DNA of 32,761 bases. It comes from Bacteroidales bacterium (GTDB lineage: Bacteria; Bacteroidota; Bacteroidia; Bacteroidales; UBA12077). The notes beneath the pieces were generated by a model. That model was not told the DNA's origin. It was given only the letters and a program-made list of their open reading frames with translations, and searched no databases. Numbering within the stretch: the stretch's first letter is position 1; every line of letters begins with the position of its first letter. Made by a program: the position numbers and the translations under genes. The stretch is from contig JAQIBH010000173.1 in assembly GCA_027859205.1 (NCBI GenBank), positions 1 through 32,761 of the forward strand, in the 5' to 3' direction. This document shows positions 1,218-22,139 of the stretch, in pieces.

Positions 1218-2654
1218 TTACGGAGTTTCTATGCGTTCATAAGCTCCCAAATCAGGTCCTGAGTCTGAAGTTCTGTCTTGTAAAAGTATATCTAAATCGA
1301 TATAGGATAAATCGTGATATCGTTTCCCAAAATCTTTAGCAACAGAAAGAATGTCTAACACAAAATTTCCTTCATATGGATCAATAAAATTAGGATCTAT
1401 GTTTACGATCACTTCCTCAAAAAAATCGGAATTTGATGTTGAAAATTCAGAGTCAACTTTAATTAAAGTATGATCGAATTTGTAGTTTAGTTCACCTTCA
1501 TCTGTTTCAGACTTGTCAATATAAATTTCGGACATTTTATTGCCATAAATTATACAATTTGCAAATAAAGCTTTTGTAATTGGTCTAATGTGTGTACTAC
1601 CATTTATATCAACATAATAATTATTAAGTAAAAGCGAAGGAGTGTTCCTTGTAGAATAACCCCAGTAATTTCCTATAGTGCAATGGTAAAACTCATATGA
1701 ACCTCCAATGGTTAATGCTACACCAAATTGTCCGCAGTTTGATATTACATTATTGAATGCTTTAATTGTAGATCCTTGAGCATAAATAGCTGTAGACGTC
1801 ATATTTGAGATTTTGCTATTAGAAATAAGCAATGTAGGATTTATCTCATTCGCAAATGTGTCAACTTGAATCCCGATTATTGCATTTTTAATTTCAGAGA
1901 AATTGAATACATTATCTTTGCTGCCTGCCATTAGCCATATCCCATCCCATTGGCCAGGTATATTTTCATAATCATCTTCTAATCTGTCACCTTGAAATAT
2001 TATTGGAGACTCAAATGTTCCATTTGCTTCAATTGTTCCGGCAACAAACAATCTCGAATTTTTATGAAAATGCATTATAACTCCAGGCTCTATTGTGAGA
2101 ACGCTGTTTGATTCAACCAGCATTGAATTATAAATTAAATATGGCTTATCATTTATCCATGTTTGTGACCCATTTATCATACCGCTAGAATCTTTTCCAT
2201 CTATCTTATTAACATCTTGTCCAAATGCTATAAGCTTAATATCTTGTTGTGTGTTATTAAATGAAAATATAATAGAATCTTTCACTATCAGTGGTAAATT
2301 AGAATTGTTTGGATCAATAGTTATTTCAACAAAAATATATAAACTGTCTTTTTCTTTTAGCTCAATATCTCGTAATTGAATCCCAGAATATCCGTCAATA
2401 TTAAGTCTGAATGGAGAAGTTTCCCCGCCGGCTAAACTAATTGAAGATAATTTAATACTTTCATTATATGGATTTTTTACTTTAAATAGTTGAGTTGAAG
2501 ATCCTATTGTTGTGAATATCGTATCAAAAAGAACCGTATCTGTAGAAAATATTAATTTAGCATCAAATGAAGTGTTAAATTCTTCTTTCTCGCAAGAATA
2601 AAAAACTTGAAATAGAATTATAGATATAATGATATATTTTAATGATTTAGGCAT
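1218..2654 (-). CDS. Lipoprotein with right-handed beta-helix repeats
   Basis: The 478-aa product begins with a lipoprotein signal peptide whose lipobox is VFYSC (Cys21), so it should be lipid-anchored in the envelope. Residues about 30-130 form a beta-sandwich-like N-terminal region (contains DTVLFDTIFTTIGSS). The middle carries irregular Asn/Ile/Gly-rich stretches typical of a parallel beta-helix (for example around NSKISNMTSTAIYAQGS and NNVISNCGQFGVAL). The C-terminus ends in DLGAYERIE, a close relative of the PDxGAYE ending common in Bacteroidota beta-helix proteins. No polysaccharide-lyase catalytic signature is obvious, so the function is unknown; surface binding or structure is as likely as an enzyme. 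It is probably the first gene of a two-gene unit with the EEP-family gene. Confidence 0.8.
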   Translation of the reverse strand: MPKSLKYIIISIILFQVFYSCEKEEFNTSFDAKLIFSTDTVLFDTIFTTIGSSTQLFKVKNPYNESIKLSSISLAGGETSPFRLNIDGYSGIQLRDIELKEKDSLYIFVEITIDPNNSNLPLIVKDSIIFSFNNTQQDIKLIAFGQDVNKIDGKDSSGMINGSQTWINDKPYLIYNSMLVESNSVLTIEPGVIMHFHKNSRLFVAGTIEANGTFESPIIFQGDRLEDDYENIPGQWDGIWLMAGSKDNVFNFSEIKNAIIGIQVDTFANEINPTLLISNSKISNMTSTAIYAQGSTIKAFNNVISNCGQFGVALTIGGSYEFYHCTIGNYWGYSTRNTPSLLLNNYYVDINGSTHIRPITKALFANCIIYGNKMSEIYIDKSETDEGELNYKFDHTLIKVDSEFSTSNSDFFEEVIVNIDPNFIDPYEGNFVLDILSVAKDFGKRYHDLSYIDLDILLQDRTSDSGPDLGAYERIETP

Positions 2655-3516: not shown

Positions 3517-4863
3517 TTATAGTGTAATTTGCTCTCCTCTATAGAATTCTAATATTTTAGTTCTGAAAATATACTCGTATTTAGCTTGTGCCAAATCAGA
3601 ATTAGATTTATTTAATTGATTTTTAGCTGTATTATATTCTAATATATCAACTAATCCAACTTGGTATTTTTGTTCTGTATATCTAAAAGCCTCTTCCATT
3701 GCCTTAACTGCCTCAAGGTTAGCCTTGTATCTGTCCAGTGATGCAATTGCTTGTGTTTTTACAAGTTGAATATCTTTATAAAGATTCTGTTTTTGAAGAT
3801 CTAAAAATAATCCTGCATCATTTAAACTAATTTTTGCTTGATTAATTGAATTTCCTGTTCTCCAGTTATTAAAAAGAGGAATTCTTAAGGCTAGATATAT
3901 TGCTTGAGATGCATTGTCTCCAATTTGTTCAAGATAGGGGTAGTTTGAACCTGGATCAGCAATATTTGTTGCTAATTCATTATATCTTGACTGATATTGA
4001 TACCCAAAAGTTAAACTTGGACTTATGCTACCATAAGAAATTGCTAAATTCATTTCCGAACTTTTTAAATATAATTCTGCACTTTTTATTTCAGGTAAAA
4101 ATGCTAAAGCATCATTATAAACGTCATTAACAGTGGTTATGTTATTTCCTAAAGTAATGTCTAGTATTTCGGGAATAACAATATCAAAATTATTTGGATC
4201 TTCTAAGTATAATAACTGAACAAGGTCAAGATAAGATATTTTCAAATTGTTTTCGGCATCTGTTAAAGCCGCTTTTTCACCGGCAGCCTGAGATTGTATT
4301 TGCAGTAAATCTCCTTTGGAAGCATTACCTATTTCATATAATGTTTTTGTTTTTTCAATTTGTTTAATTGTTATATCAATTTGTTGTTGAGCATTATCAC
4401 GGAGTTCTTTATTTAAAAGAATCTGTAAATACGAAGTTGCAACATTTAATGTTATATCATTTTTTACTTTTTCAACTGATTCTAATTGAGCCAGGAGATC
4501 AAGTTTATTTTTTCTAATAGTATTAAAATTTTGCAATCCATTAAAAATTGTCAATTCCGAAGAAATATTAAATCTCCCACCTTGATAAGTTTGATCTTCG
4601 TAAGTATAAGTTTCTGTATTTAGCGTTTTACCAGAGTTTATATAATGATTTCCAGTTGTATTAGCATTAGGTAACAATTCCATTAACGATTGGAAATGTG
4701 CTTTGTCAGCTGCATCGGCCGATAATTCTTCCCGTTTTACAGTAATATTATTTTCAATTGCATAATTTATACAATCTTCTAATGTCCAAACTTTTTGTGC
4801 TTGTGAGCTAATTGAAAGAGTAATTGATAGAATTGTTATTACTAATAATTGAATTGATTTCAT
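3517..4863 (-). CDS. TolC family outer-membrane efflux protein
   Basis: The 448-aa product has a Sec signal peptide (about residues 1-22, ending SSQAQ) and the architecture of the outer-membrane efflux (OEP/TolC) family: two similar halves, each rich in long coiled-coil helices, beginning with WTLEDCINYAIENN. The second half starts near the LPEIKSAELYLKSSEMNLAIS segment, and the YQVGLVDILEYNTAKNQL stretch near the C-terminus is a typical TolC repeat signature. It would form the trimeric outer-membrane duct of a tripartite efflux pump or type I secretion system. The usual partners (RND or ABC pump, membrane-fusion protein) are not downstream inside the window; at the 5' side the next gene is divergent, so the gene appears to be monocistronic. 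Confidence 0.9.
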   Translation of the reverse strand: MKSIQLLVITILSITLSISSQAQKVWTLEDCINYAIENNITVKREELSADAADKAHFQSLMELLPNANTTGNHYINSGKTLNTETYTYEDQTYQGGRFNISSELTIFNGLQNFNTIRKNKLDLLAQLESVEKVKNDITLNVATSYLQILLNKELRDNAQQQIDITIKQIEKTKTLYEIGNASKGDLLQIQSQAAGEKAALTDAENNLKISYLDLVQLLYLEDPNNFDIVIPEILDITLGNNITTVNDVYNDALAFLPEIKSAELYLKSSEMNLAISYGSISPSLTFGYQYQSRYNELATNIADPGSNYPYLEQIGDNASQAIYLALRIPLFNNWRTGNSINQAKISLNDAGLFLDLQKQNLYKDIQLVKTQAIASLDRYKANLEAVKAMEEAFRYTEQKYQVGLVDILEYNTAKNQLNKSNSDLAQAKYEYIFRTKILEFYRGEQITL

Positions 4864-12150: not shown

Positions 12151-12453
12151 TTATTTTTTATATTTCTCTTCCACTTTACTACGTACAAATCCTGATAATA
12201 GTTCTGTAATTAGTTCATCATTTTCATTAATTTCATTAATATTTTTTAATGTTTTTCCATTAAGAGTTGTAATAGAATAACCTCTTTTAAGAATATTTTT
12301 AGGATTTAATAAAGTTAATTTATTTTCTATATTATCAATAATAAGATTTTGCTTTTGAATGTATAATAGGTTGCTGTTTTTAAGCTTATTAGAAAAATAT
12401 TGTATTTTTTGCAAGTTATCATAAATTATTTTTGTTGTATTCTTATCAACCAT
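12151..12453 (-). pseudogene. xseA: xseA 3' part (C-terminal region of ExoVII large subunit)
   Basis: This frame encodes the XseA C-terminus: a helical stretch followed by LLNPKNILKRGYSIT, the signature that closes the XseA coiled-coil arm, and a small beta-rich tail (ENDELITELLSG). It is in the same reading frame as the upstream 350-codon part and is separated from it only by one TAA at 12478-12480; the first Met after the stop is at 12453, with no clear ribosome-binding site. Together the parts give about 459 codons, a normal XseA length, so nothing but the stop breaks the gene. It may be a dead remnant, a reinitiated second polypeptide, or the result of a base-call error. Confidence 0.75.
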
Positions 12454-12477
12454 ATTTGAAAGTTTTATAAAAAACAA

Positions 12478-13530
12478 TTATTCCTGTTTTTTTAACTGAC
12501 TAATTCCATTCTTTAGTTTTTCAATCAGAAAATCTAATTGGGAATTTGATTTTTCAATGTTATTTTTTATTGAAGGAACAATAATTGCAAGAAGTTGAGC
12601 TAATTTAGTTTTTTGATCTTGAATATTAGATGCAACTATATCTAAAATGCTTTCTTTTAGAAAATTAAGATTGTTTTCAAATTCGGATACTTTTTCAATT
12701 AAAAATTCTGCAACAGCAGTTGGTGTTTTTAGTTTTTTGTAAGCAACAATATCTACAATTGATTCATCTTTATCATGACCGATACCTGTTATAACTGGCA
12801 ATGGAAACTGAGCAATGTTTGCAGCTAATAAGTAATTGTTAAAACAACTAAGATCCGATTGAGATCCACCTCCTCGTATAATTACAACGACATCAAAAAA
12901 ACTTTCATACTCATATATTTTTTCTAAAGAGTTTATAATTGATTCCTCTGCTTGTAAACCTTGCATAACAGCGGGGAACAATTTAGTGTAAAATTTATAT
13001 TCAAAACTATTATTAGTAAGTTGATTTATAAAGTCTTGATATCCTGCCGAAGAATCAGATGATATTATAGCTATTTTTTGTGGAACGGTAGGAAAACTAA
13101 TTTCCTTGTTCATATGAAGTACACCTTCGTCTTCAAGTTTTTTTAATATTTCTGTTTTTTTCTGAGCTAAATCTCCTATGGTGTAATTAGGATCAATATC
13201 TGTTATATTGAGGCTTAATCCATAAAGTTCATGAAATTCGATGTTAACTTGAACTAGAATCTTTATACCAGGACTTAATTGATGGCCTGTAGTATTCTCG
13301 AAATACGGGCGAAGCATTCGATACGTGAACGCCCATATGGTTGCTCTCGCTTTTGAAATGATATTATCAGTTATTACATCTTTTTCGATTAATTCAATGT
13401 AACAATGACCATTTCTATTTACATTTAATTCACTTATTTCTGCAACCACCCACACCTCGTTGGGGAAGTTTAATTTAATTTTTTCCTGAATATCTTTATT
13501 TAATTCAAGTAAAGTAAACTTCTGAATCAT
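12478..13530 (-). CDS. xseA: Exodeoxyribonuclease VII large subunit, truncated by in-frame stop
   Basis: The 350-aa product holds the N-terminal OB-fold DNA-binding domain (about 1-105, including EVWVVAEISELN and NGHCYIELIE) and the ExoVII catalytic domain (about 120-280, with IAIISSDSSAGYQDF, VVIIRGGGSQSDLSCFNN and TGIGHDKDESIVDIVAY). The following helix, which in the family forms the long XseB-binding arm, is cut by a TAA after QLKKQE. The missing C-terminal 100-odd residues are encoded in frame just downstream. Without the full arm, assembly with XseB should be impaired if no readthrough or reinitiation occurs. The gene starts 1 bp after the subtilisin gene stop. Confidence 0.85.
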   Translation of the reverse strand: MIQKFTLLELNKDIQEKIKLNFPNEVWVVAEISELNVNRNGHCYIELIEKDVITDNIISKARATIWAFTYRMLRPYFENTTGHQLSPGIKILVQVNIEFHELYGLSLNITDIDPNYTIGDLAQKKTEILKKLEDEGVLHMNKEISFPTVPQKIAIISSDSSAGYQDFINQLTNNSFEYKFYTKLFPAVMQGLQAEESIINSLEKIYEYESFFDVVVIIRGGGSQSDLSCFNNYLLAANIAQFPLPVITGIGHDKDESIVDIVAYKKLKTPTAVAEFLIEKVSEFENNLNFLKESILDIVASNIQDQKTKLAQLLAIIVPSIKNNIEKSNSQLDFLIEKLKNGISQLKKQE

Positions 13531-19971: not shown

Positions 19972-20808
19972 ATGGCCAATTTCTTAAAAAAACCATATCC
20001 TTTTAACGATGATTTAAAGTATAATAGTAAACTTATATTTTTTATAAGTGTTGGGGTTTTAGTTTTTTTGTACTTATTTCAACCTCTGGATGTAAGTACA
20101 CTGGCTAATGAACAGAAAATATATGTAGCAATTGGTTTAGGTTTGGTAACATTTCTTTCGTTAAGCTTAAATTTATTAATACTCCCGAGTTTATTTCCGA
20201 AAATGTTTTTTAAGAATATTTGGAATATATGGAAAGAGATCATCTGGAATATTTGGATTTTATCTACAATCTCTGTCGGTTATTTTCTATATTATAAAGC
20301 TTTAGGGATATTCGATATTGATTTTAATACAATTGTTGGACTAATTTTAATTGGTGTTATCCCAATAACTGGGCTAATTACAGTTAATCAAAACAGAAAA
20401 CTGCGATCATATCTTAATCTTGCGGAAGGAATTAATAAAAAACTTAAGGAGAATAAGTCTATTGAGGAAAAGTTAGTGCATTTTGAATCAGATTATGTAA
20501 AAGACAATTTGTCGATAAAAGTTAGTTTTTTAATGTTGATTCGATCTGCTAACAATTATATTGAAGTGTTTTGGAAAGAAGGAGAGAGAGTAAAAAGTCA
20601 GATGATTCGTACAAGTTTACTTAAAGCAGAATTGTTATTAAAAGAACATAAATTTATTTTTAAATGTCATCGGTCATACATGGTGAATATAAACTTTATT
20701 GATAAAATAGAAGGGAACATTCAAGGATATAAATTATTTTTTGAAAGTCTTGATTTTTCTATACCCGTATCAAAAAATTTCGCGTATAAATTAAAAGAAC
20801 TTATTTAA
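19972..20808 (+). CDS. Membrane-anchored LytTR-domain transcriptional regulator
   Basis: From the ATG at 19972 the protein is 278 aa (an in-frame TTG at 19921 would add 17 polar residues before the typical MxxFLKKPYPFNDD start). Four predicted membrane segments lie at about 21-37, 51-73, 90-108 and 117-135, followed by a short linker helix and a C-terminal LytTR DNA-binding domain (about 180-278) with LIRSANNYIEVFW, TSLLKAEL, FKCHRSYMVNINFID and the ending IPVSKNFAYKLKEL. It is a one-component regulator that would sense something at the membrane and bind DNA directly; no separate histidine kinase is next to it. A set of regularly spaced repeats just after the gene is a likely target. Confidence 0.9.
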   Translation: MANFLKKPYPFNDDLKYNSKLIFFISVGVLVFLYLFQPLDVSTLANEQKIYVAIGLGLVTFLSLSLNLLILPSLFPKMFFKNIWNIWKEIIWNIWILSTISVGYFLYYKALGIFDIDFNTIVGLILIGVIPITGLITVNQNRKLRSYLNLAEGINKKLKENKSIEEKLVHFESDYVKDNLSIKVSFLMLIRSANNYIEVFWKEGERVKSQMIRTSLLKAELLLKEHKFIFKCHRSYMVNINFIDKIEGNIQGYKLFFESLDFSIPVSKNFAYKLKELI

Positions 20809-20830
20809 TTCACCTCCAAATCATATAGAA

Positions 20831-20900
20831 TTCACACCTGAATAGAGATTTTTCATCCCTAAACAGCGTTTTTCAAACCTAACTTACTTCATTTAAACCT
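20831..20900 (+). promoter_or_regulatory. Array of four direct repeats, probable LytTR operator
   Basis: TTCACACCT (20831-20839), TTCATCCCT (20852-20860), TTCAAACCT (20872-20880) and TTTAAACCT (20892-20900) fit TTYAnnCCT with start-to-start spacing of 21, 20 and 20 bp. A weaker TTCACCT occurs at 20809-20815. Nine-base direct repeats about two helical turns apart are the known layout of LytTR-family sites. The array lies between the LytTR gene and the nitronate-monooxygenase-like gene, directly upstream of a -7 box. Its assignment to this regulator is inference. Confidence 0.6.
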
Positions 20901-20928
20901 TTTTTTTTACAAAAACAGGCATTAATAG

Positions 20929-20936
20929 TAGTTTTG
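20929..20936 (+). promoter_or_regulatory. -7 box for the nitronate-monooxygenase-like gene
   Basis: TAGTTTTG matches TAnnTTTG and lies 27 bp before the ATG at 20964. There is no TTG in the expected -33 region (a T8 tract and A-rich DNA lie there), as expected for an activator-dependent promoter. Confidence 0.45.
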
Positions 20937-20963: not shown

Positions 20964-22139
20964 ATGAATTCATTAAATATAGGGAATTTAAAAGTTAATT
21001 TGCCCGTAATTCAAGGTGGAATGGGAGTGGCTATATCTTTATCAGGATTGGCTTCTGCAGTTGCAAATGCTGGTGGTATTGGAGTTATTTCTGCTGTAGC
21101 AATCGGAATGACCGAACCCGATTACATGAAAAATTATCGAGAAGCCAATAAAAGAGCATTACGTAAGGAGATAAGAAAAGCAAGAACATTAACTGATGGT
21201 GTTTTAGGTGTAAATTTAATGATAGCAGTAACAGATTATGAAGAGTTATTTACTGTTGCCCTTGAGGAAAAGATCGACGTAATAATTTTAGGAGCAGGTC
21301 TGCCTCTTAAACTGCCAAAATATGTAACAGATAAAGGAATTGAGAATATTCATACAAAATTCATTACCAAAGTATCATCAGCAAAAGCTGCTAAAGTAAT
21401 TTTTTCGTATTGGGCCAAAAATTTTAATTATATTCCTGATGCTGTTGTGGTTGAAGGACCAATGGCGGGAGGACATCTAGGTTTTAAAAGAGAAGATTTA
21501 GATGGAGAGCTTGTTCCTTTAGGAGATTTAGTTGAAGAAACCGTAGCTGAATTAAAGCATTTTGAAAATGAGTTTGGGAAAGAAGTTCCTGTAATTGCAG
21601 GTGGAGGAATATATTCCGGTAGCGATATGTATGACATTATGCAAAAAGGTGCAAAAGGTGTGAAAATGGGAACTCGGTTTGTAACTACTAACGAATGTGA
21701 TGCATCTGAAAAGTTTAAACAGACTTATGTAGATAGTAAAGAAGAAGATATAGTAATAATAAAAAGTCCGGTTGGGCTGCCTGGAAGAGCAATAAAAAAT
21801 AGTTTTATAGATAAAGTTAACTCAGGAAATGCGGAACCTTTTAAATGTTATTGGAAGTGTTTGAAATCATGTGATTCGAAAAATGTTCCTTACTGTATTG
21901 CTCAGGCATTACACAATGCATCAAAAGGAGATATGGATAAAGGCTTCGCTTTTGCAGGATCAAAAGCATTTATGGCTACTAAAATACAACCAGTTTTTCA
22001 AGTAGTTTTAGAGTTGAAGTTAGAATTTTATAAGAAGAAATATCTGGAGTACTTAAGAAATTTCCTTGATCAAAGATTTATTCCTGAACGGATTAATATT
22101 CCGAGTGTTATACCATACATAAATATTAGAATGGCATAA
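20964..22139 (+). CDS. Nitronate monooxygenase-family FMN flavoprotein
   Basis: The 391-aa product has the TIM-barrel signature of the 2-nitropropane dioxygenase/nitronate monooxygenase family: LPVIQGGMGVAIS at the N-terminus, VVVEGPMAGGHLGF with the likely catalytic His171, VIAGGGIYSG and GVKMGTRFVTT (FMN phosphate contacts). A cysteine cluster follows the barrel (C295, C299, C303 and C311, in the CYWKCLKSC region), which could ligate a metal or iron-sulphur centre; this makes the protein longer than the classic enzymes. The substrate is uncertain: nitronate oxidation and an enoyl-ACP-reductase-like role (FabK fold) are alternatives. It is the first gene after the LytTR repeat array and may be its target. 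Confidence 0.85.
   Translation: MNSLNIGNLKVNLPVIQGGMGVAISLSGLASAVANAGGIGVISAVAIGMTEPDYMKNYREANKRALRKEIRKARTLTDGVLGVNLMIAVTDYEELFTVALEEKIDVIILGAGLPLKLPKYVTDKGIENIHTKFITKVSSAKAAKVIFSYWAKNFNYIPDAVVVEGPMAGGHLGFKREDLDGELVPLGDLVEETVAELKHFENEFGKEVPVIAGGGIYSGSDMYDIMQKGAKGVKMGTRFVTTNECDASEKFKQTYVDSKEEDIVIIKSPVGLPGRAIKNSFIDKVNSGNAEPFKCYWKCLKSCDSKNVPYCIAQALHNASKGDMDKGFAFAGSKAFMATKIQPVFQVVLELKLEFYKKKYLEYLRNFLDQRFIPERINIPSVIPYINIRMA

Follow-up and report, generated by a model that had tools for sequence, protein, structure and literature searches.

The window, a stretch of 32,761 nucleotides from a Bacteroidales genome, carries on its forward strand a compact locus composed of two genes and the short intergenic region that separates them. 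The upstream gene (19972-20808) encodes a 278-aa LytTR-family regulator (Pfam LytTR, 8.3e-11), while the downstream gene (20964-22139), its presumed target, encodes a 391-aa FabX-like flavoprotein with FabX as its closest solved relative. Between them lie four 9-bp direct repeats, regarded here as putative operator sites on the same strand: S1 (TTCACACCT; 20831-20839), S2 (TTCATCCCT; 20852-20860), S3 (TTCAAACCT; 20872-20880) and S4 (TTTAAACCT; 20892-20900). An earlier note on this DNA had reported repeats with starts spaced by 21, 20 and 20 bp, and these are confirmed at 20831, 20852, 20872 and 20892, with gaps of 12, 11 and 11 bp between the sites. Also confirmed is its observation that the array ends 28 bp before a -7-type promoter box of the pattern TAnnTTTG (TAGTTTTG; 20929-20936, forward strand).

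The four sites were scored with a position weight matrix (PWM) trained on 25 distant loci (LytTR identity below 70%), with the window excluded. In this held-out model, S2 is the strongest site (16.0 bits), followed by S1 (11.0 bits), S3 (10.0 bits) and S4, the weakest (6.6 bits). The combined four-site score is 43.6; among 205 first-order resamples drawn from the 41 intergenic regions described below, the highest score was 22.9. When the six best four-site scores on each strand of the 32.8-kb window are considered, those on the forward strand are the array and its shifts, and the best on the reverse strand is -3.3. Beyond S1-S4, no position exceeds 3.5 bits in the scored intergenic stretch, to the edge of which position 20809 lies too near for scoring there. 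A weaker fifth repeat had been proposed at that position (TTCACCTCC; 20809-20817, forward strand); at 4.4 bits it is unsupported and was rejected as a site. TTCAC-like words do recur around this position in same-genus loci. A generic repeat finder using exact seeds of 9 lists no repeat at the array, as the copies are too degenerate for seeds of this kind.

Conservation and geometry of the array

The array is deeply conserved. Searches of genome contigs with the LytTR protein returned 47 loci, 40 of which also show a FabX-like gene in the retrieved sequence and, together with the window, form a set of 41. The FabX-like gene is downstream and in the same orientation in those 40, at 144-307 bp from BLAST end to start. 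An exception is L065, where about 1 kb separates the array from the FabX-like gene, rendering the box-to-ATG figures for this locus meaningless. The seven loci without a FabX match were excluded: four are cut by contig ends (L077, L080, L082 and L074, the last of which retains the array and the start of a MKALHIGDLEV-type frame), and in three a FabX match was not found though the DNA continues (L076, L078 and L079). LytTR homologues among the 41 loci range down to 42% identity, and the record titles span Bacteroidales, Bacteroidetes, Marinilabiliales, Chlorobiota and Kapaibacterium, together with one isolate, Breznakibacter (B. xylanolyticus DSM 6779; L061), in which the box is at S4+37.

Loss of the repeats from relatives that keep both genes had been named as an outcome that would refute a regulatory role; instead, the four-site array is present in 41/41 loci, the lowest real score (29.0) exceeding the highest of the 205 resamples. 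This score is non-independent for 25 of the regions, which sit among the 41 and trained the matrix, with the window and 15 near relatives held out. The S1-S2 spacing is exactly 21 bp in every locus, even though it was left freer in the search. Slightly more variation occurs at S2-S3 (19 bp in 24 loci, 20 in 16 and 21 in one) and S3-S4 (19 bp in one locus, 20 in 21 and 21 in 19), with the total from S1 to S4 confined to 60-62 bp throughout. The exact TAnnTTTG box begins 37 bp after the S4 start in 34/41 loci, at +36 in three and at +38 in one, with no exact match in the remaining 3/41. The distance from the LytTR stop codon to S1 varies from 3 to 163 bp while that from S4 to the box is rigid, which indicates that the position of the array is set relative to the promoter and not to the gene before it. 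The absence of a -33 element, pointed out in the earlier note, is family-wide. In the window, the would-be -33 position falls in a T-rich stretch (20901-20910, forward strand); across the 41 loci, T predominates in the ten bases that follow S4, with at most 7% G per position and no TTG consensus.

The regulator and its FabX-like neighbour

The upstream protein is a member of the LytTR DNA-binding family by both profile and fold, and 9-bp repeats 10-13 bp apart, the published arrangement of LytTR sites (PMC11347149; PMC6193735), lie near the promoter of its presumed target. The Pfam domain covers residues 182-278 (42.4 bits against a cut-off of 22.6). It is predicted to follow four membrane helices and a long connecting helix: in an AlphaFold2 model (mean pLDDT 84.5, pTM 0.54) built on an alignment of 41 rows, helices at residues 15-36, 46-74, 86-111 and 118-161 coincide with hydrophobic stretches. 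At E below 0.001, Foldseek matches to this model are exclusively LytTR domains or ComE, including 3d6w and the AgrA-DNA entries 4xqn and 3bs1. Pfam at E up to 0.001 likewise identifies LytTR only, with no MHYT domain. The regulator gene is flanked by a pseudouridylate synthase gene and the FabX-like gene; no separate membrane inhibitor gene is found among these neighbours, the membrane part being fused to the LytTR domain. In a FastTree phylogeny of 77 sequences, which leaves out L081 (partial LytTR) and a 53%-identical paralogue at L029, the LytTR proteins encoded beside a fabX-like gene form one clade (40/40 tips, support 0.951). Autoregulation through the same motif was rejected, given that in 40 loci this motif model detects no array in the 350 bp that precede the LytTR gene (best score -13.9).

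The downstream protein is probably FabX-like, a flavoprotein with a [4Fe-4S] cluster that acts in unsaturated fatty acid synthesis, judging from its sequence, its fold and four invariant cysteines. The nearest solved relative is Helicobacter pylori FabX (E about 2e-63 to PDB 7E1Q, named as FabX in PMC8626469, and related entries), Foldseek ranks 1-5 are all FabX, and identity to the H. pylori enzyme is 40.7% over 339 aligned residues. Cys295, Cys299, Cys303 and Cys311 align to the cluster cysteines C300, C304, C308 and C320, and His171 to the catalytic H182, all five positions being invariant in 36/36 aligned sequences. The window protein thus has the same four cluster cysteines and catalytic histidine as the characterized enzyme, but differs from it at the acyl carrier protein (ACP) contacts T130 and R164 (L115 and N153 here; PMC8626469), for which reason it is termed FabX-like rather than FabX. 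The FMN contact Q240 is also replaced, by lysine, and with these three substitutions the partner or substrate of the enzyme may differ. A Bacteroidales protein about 40% identical to H. pylori FabX is named FabX in PMC11300592, which cites a Neisseria homologue for anaerobic unsaturated fatty acid synthesis; the word LytTR is absent from the main text of that paper.

The earlier note had described this gene as nitronate-monooxygenase-like. If the enzyme were a true nitronate monooxygenase or a FabK-type enoyl reductase, the regulation would concern detoxification or saturated fatty acid synthesis, an alternative that is quite unlikely. It draws on the Pfam NMO match (6.7e-51), a family that is the parent of both nitronate monooxygenase and FabK, and on the best NCBIfam match, FabK, whose 142 bits fall short of the 453-bit cut-off. 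However, FabX is far closer than either by fold and by E-value (1.9e-63, compared with 4.9e-26 for Thermotoga maritima FabK, 5.5e-26 for TM0800 (3bo9), titled a putative nitroalkan dioxygenase, and 3e-12 or weaker for other solved nitroalkane or nitronate enzymes), and the invariant cluster cysteines also speak against it. The nitronate monooxygenase assignment was consequently rejected and the target corrected to FabX-like, suggesting that some would-be nitronate monooxygenases in these genomes are FabX-like enzymes. Elsewhere in the window's genome, a 366-aa relative of fatty acid desaturases is encoded (L149 185-1285; G000:C206), and a second route to unsaturated lipids may therefore coexist.

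Motif specificity and paralogous LytTR systems

Within the 3.6-Mb genome of the window, the dimer pattern suggested in the earlier note has five matches, three of which are the array itself and two of which (in contigs C75 and C105) are inside open frames. The first of these frames presumably encodes a fumarate reductase/succinate dehydrogenase flavoprotein, the second a 108-aa protein; given the position of both extra matches, a larger regulon in this genome was rejected. A relaxed search allowing three mismatches on both strands is uninformative as a count (16 matches versus 15 in the backward control); it brought out the array of a paralogue in contig C97. The strict form TTYRYCCCT-N11/12-TTYRYCCCT, which the window's own array fails, has ten matches in 19 same-genus genomes and none in the backward control. 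Nine of the ten coincide with the coordinates of a LytTR-fabX locus, in keeping with the rarity elsewhere that a genuine operator motif had been expected to show, and the tenth (G019:C237) is within a hairpin-like stretch, AAGGGATAAA...TTTATCCCTT.

On a class-wide scale, TTCRYCCCT-N11/12-TTCRYCCCT occurs in two of 247 genomes, neither of which has a FabX match. FabX homologues (E <= 1e-60) were identified in 4/247 class genomes, including that of the window. For the other three, tblastn of three LytTR queries against the retrieved DNA gave no match (best E 0.62), and the 600 bp upstream contain no array, with scores of -11.1, -6.6 and -14.3 compared with the minimum of 29.0 among the conserved loci. 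An FA_desaturase_2 gene (L125 363-1358; 4.1e-140) converges on one of these LytTR-less homologues, which fits a role in unsaturated lipids. In the two class genomes that have this stricter motif but no FabX match, it lies beside other genes, at loci whose retrieved 3 kb gave no LytTR match. At L120 (1501-1550, reverse strand; G088:C24:3056-3104), three TTCGTCCCT words with exactly 20 bp spacing precede the gene for a 131-aa protein resembling DUF4907 (below cut-off), and at L121 (about 1510, reverse strand; G084:C12), two TTCACCCCT words are upstream of a 482-aa frame.

The window's genome contains 16 LytTR-domain matches, among which the proteins encoded in contigs C97 and C21 share the membrane-plus-LytTR layout with the window's regulator (30% and 36% identity to it, respectively). 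In most cases, these genes and their same-genus orthologues have phased sites of a different sequence downstream, roughly TTC[AG]CCCCA for the C97 type and TTCATCACA for the C21 type. The C97 gene is accompanied by an array of four TTCACCCCA-like sites (G000:C97:9860-10060, reverse strand; L116 about 3860-4060) with TATATTTC at S4+37, and the C21 gene by phased TTCAACACA-like sites (G000:C21:6790-6930; L117 3291-3430), then a 115-aa protein. Among loci with enough sequence, the TA of the box is found at S4+37 in 11/11 of the C97 type and 9/10 of the C21 type, and the fuller box pattern at +37 in 9/11 and 9/10, respectively. The C21 type comprises 14 rows, with L145 and L029 representing the same locus, counted twice in the ten; in four of the 14 (L031, L033, L035 and L138) there is no room for a box within the 230 bp taken, and three of these show only three sites. 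Also in this clade, both the array and a match to the small target are missing at L137, and L034 has the array but its retrieved sequence does not match the target.

In the FastTree phylogeny, each of the three LytTR clades is monophyletic, and their motifs are distinct: PWM cross-scores are 52.6, 47.7 and 40.2 for loci of the same clade and at most 23.9 off the diagonal, each PWM being trained and scored on the same loci. A weak, motif-free test for phased repeats found at most five of 100 shuffles reaching the observed value in 8/17 regions, with one of 18 regions too short, and nothing at L029, L033 or L035. The putative target of the C97 type is lipid-methyltransferase-like, with a methyltransferase match in 11/11 loci and, as best NCBIfam models, phthiotriol and fatty-acid O-methyltransferases, both below cut-off. 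The 115-aa C21-type target has no Pfam match.

Other LytTR genes were observed near related or different repeats. At L029, in one same-genus genome, the gene for the 53%-identical paralogue (1501-2337, reverse strand; G011:C23) has downstream of it, at a spacing of 19 bp, TTCGCCCCT and TTACTCCCT; these are two good sites of the window's motif, with an array score of 18.4, and the frame downstream is one we take to be glycosyltransferase-like. Considering this frame, and the occurrence of the motif by other genes at L120 and L121, one motif need not mean one target. Five other membrane LytTR genes of Bacteroidota (L025, L026, L076, L078 and L079) precede a MNxLLxYPKYPDTYWSF-like frame, with CACAA- or CCC-rich words between gene and frame. 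The frame of L078, the only one tested, has B12-binding and radical SAM matches.

Regulatory interpretation and known systems

It is probable, on the sequence evidence assembled above, that the array serves as operator for the LytTR protein encoded upstream, a membrane-anchored activator dedicated to a single fabX-like gene. Copies of the four-helix membrane protein would bind the four 9-bp sites, whose spacing, close to two turns of the helix, places them along nearly the same face of the DNA, and the 20-21 bp spacing would allow several copies to be accommodated side by side. The bound protein may then recruit RNA polymerase to a promoter that has a -7 box and no recognisable -33 element, turning on the FabX-like flavoprotein, which is expected to add double bonds during fatty acid synthesis. 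Soluble LytTR activators likewise work from repeats that are upstream of -35 (PMC6193735; PMC11347149), and each of the paralogous membrane LytTR proteins would bind an operator of its own downstream of its gene. As the target likely functions in unsaturated fatty acid synthesis, a regulator embedded in the bilayer may sense what its target changes; the membrane part would respond to a membrane property, and product and sensor would together constitute a lipid-homeostasis loop. The membrane environment has been raised as a possible input for transmembrane regulators generally (PMC10269533). We infer the roles of the LytTR protein as binder and activator, and of its membrane part as sensor, from these sequence features, and the sign of regulation from site position alone. 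The proposal of the earlier note that the upstream regulator controls the next gene through the array gained from the two refutation tests that could be run, in which the array proved conserved and the motif rare elsewhere, and from the clade-specific motifs found beside paralogous LytTR genes.

The same architecture could serve repression, with the LytTR protein bound to the array and the fabX-like gene released when the membrane needs more unsaturation. CoxC provides a precedent as a membrane-bound LytTR repressor with three repeats (PMC11347149), and the architecture by itself gives no sign. However, the CoxC sites overlap the -35 region, whereas S4 ends 28 bp before the -7 box, a position upstream of the -33 region and clear of it. 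The promoter has no conserved -33 element, as expected of one that depends on an activator, and the binding sites of most LytTR activators are upstream of -35 (PMC11347149; PMC6193735). Repression is thus unlikely, and activation is the preferred sign. It is very unlikely that another transcription factor binds the array and that the LytTR gene is just a conserved neighbour. This explanation would be compatible with the presence of 16 LytTR-domain matches in the genome, with a link between regulator and array that is drawn from sequence, and with the occurrence of the strict motif in two class genomes that lack a FabX match and whose retrieved 3 kb gave no LytTR match. Yet the motifs shift with the LytTR clade while the geometry stays constant, FabX homologues that have no LytTR gene have no array, and site length and spacing are of the LytTR type.

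The probability that the repeats arose by chance or from low complexity, or that they act in the RNA as leader or terminator of the LytTR transcript, is close to negligible. The sites are short AT-rich words in an AT-rich genome, and the generic repeat finder was empty; nevertheless, held-out scores, the resample control and conservation refute a chance origin in the main, and the spacing is rigid to the promoter box rather than to either gene. An RNA feature was rejected, as the region has no Rfam match at gathering cut-offs and no listed inverted repeats.

Membrane-bound LytTR proteins (CoxC, HigX and the LytTR regulatory system (LRS)-like regulators of Bacteroides), LytTR repeats and three-repeat operators are already in print. 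The earlier note had held four or five sites to be more than the usual two, though more than two repeats has precedent in the three of RcoM1 and CoxC (PMC11347149). CoxC of Afipia carboxidovorans, an MHYT-LytTR protein, resembles the window's system in being membrane-bound and in using more than two direct repeats about two helical turns apart. It differs in having three repeats, seven membrane segments with an MHYT domain, a repressing role with sites over -35, and CO oxidation as its target (PMC11347149). RcoM1 of Paraburkholderia xenovorans, considered here through the same paper, is a LytTR protein with three repeats compared with four in the window. In LRS (HdrRM and BrsRM), a LytTR activator is likewise under membrane control and acts through direct repeats just upstream of the promoter, and Bacteroides LRS-like regulators also have several membrane segments and a TATCTTTG box (PMC6193735). 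Unlike LRS, in which the membrane inhibitor is a protein of its own and the two repeats lie at the promoter of the LRS operon itself (PMC6193735), the window's system combines the membrane part and DNA-binding domain in one protein, and its four sites would serve the downstream gene. HigX of Caulobacter crescentus also has four membrane helices followed by a LytTR domain, and envelope-related targets, but is reported to have an 8-bp imperfect inverted repeat as its motif, with ChIP-seq peaks at many places (PMC13384398). Searches of the open-access literature yielded no paper on a LytTR-fabX pair or a four-site array with fixed promoter geometry, which is weak evidence.

If the activator reading is right, the locus would represent a compact system for tuning membrane unsaturation in mostly uncultured Bacteroidota, comprising one protein, one operator and one target gene. 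The loci in which four-site geometry is fixed while paralogue sites differ would provide a natural set for studying LytTR DNA specificity, as well as cooperative activation at promoters that have no -33 element. The combination of motif and geometry could also be used to predict what membrane LytTR proteins that are as yet uncharacterised control. A further reading, which is less likely than not, is that Bacteroidota possess a widespread class of membrane-embedded four-helix LytTR regulators that sense the bilayer directly, each controlling one membrane-modifying gene through its own four-site operator with 37 bp from the S4 start to the box. The window would then hold the unsaturated-fatty-acid member, and a paralogue would control a methyltransferase related to fatty-acid O-methyltransferases. 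Such a class, if real, would give bacteria a counterpart of membrane-lipid sensing in a single protein.

Away from this locus, the window contains two abutting open reading frames in the same frame on the reverse strand (12151-13530), of 350 and 108 aa, with one in-frame stop between them. Together they resemble what we take to be the exonuclease VII large subunit.
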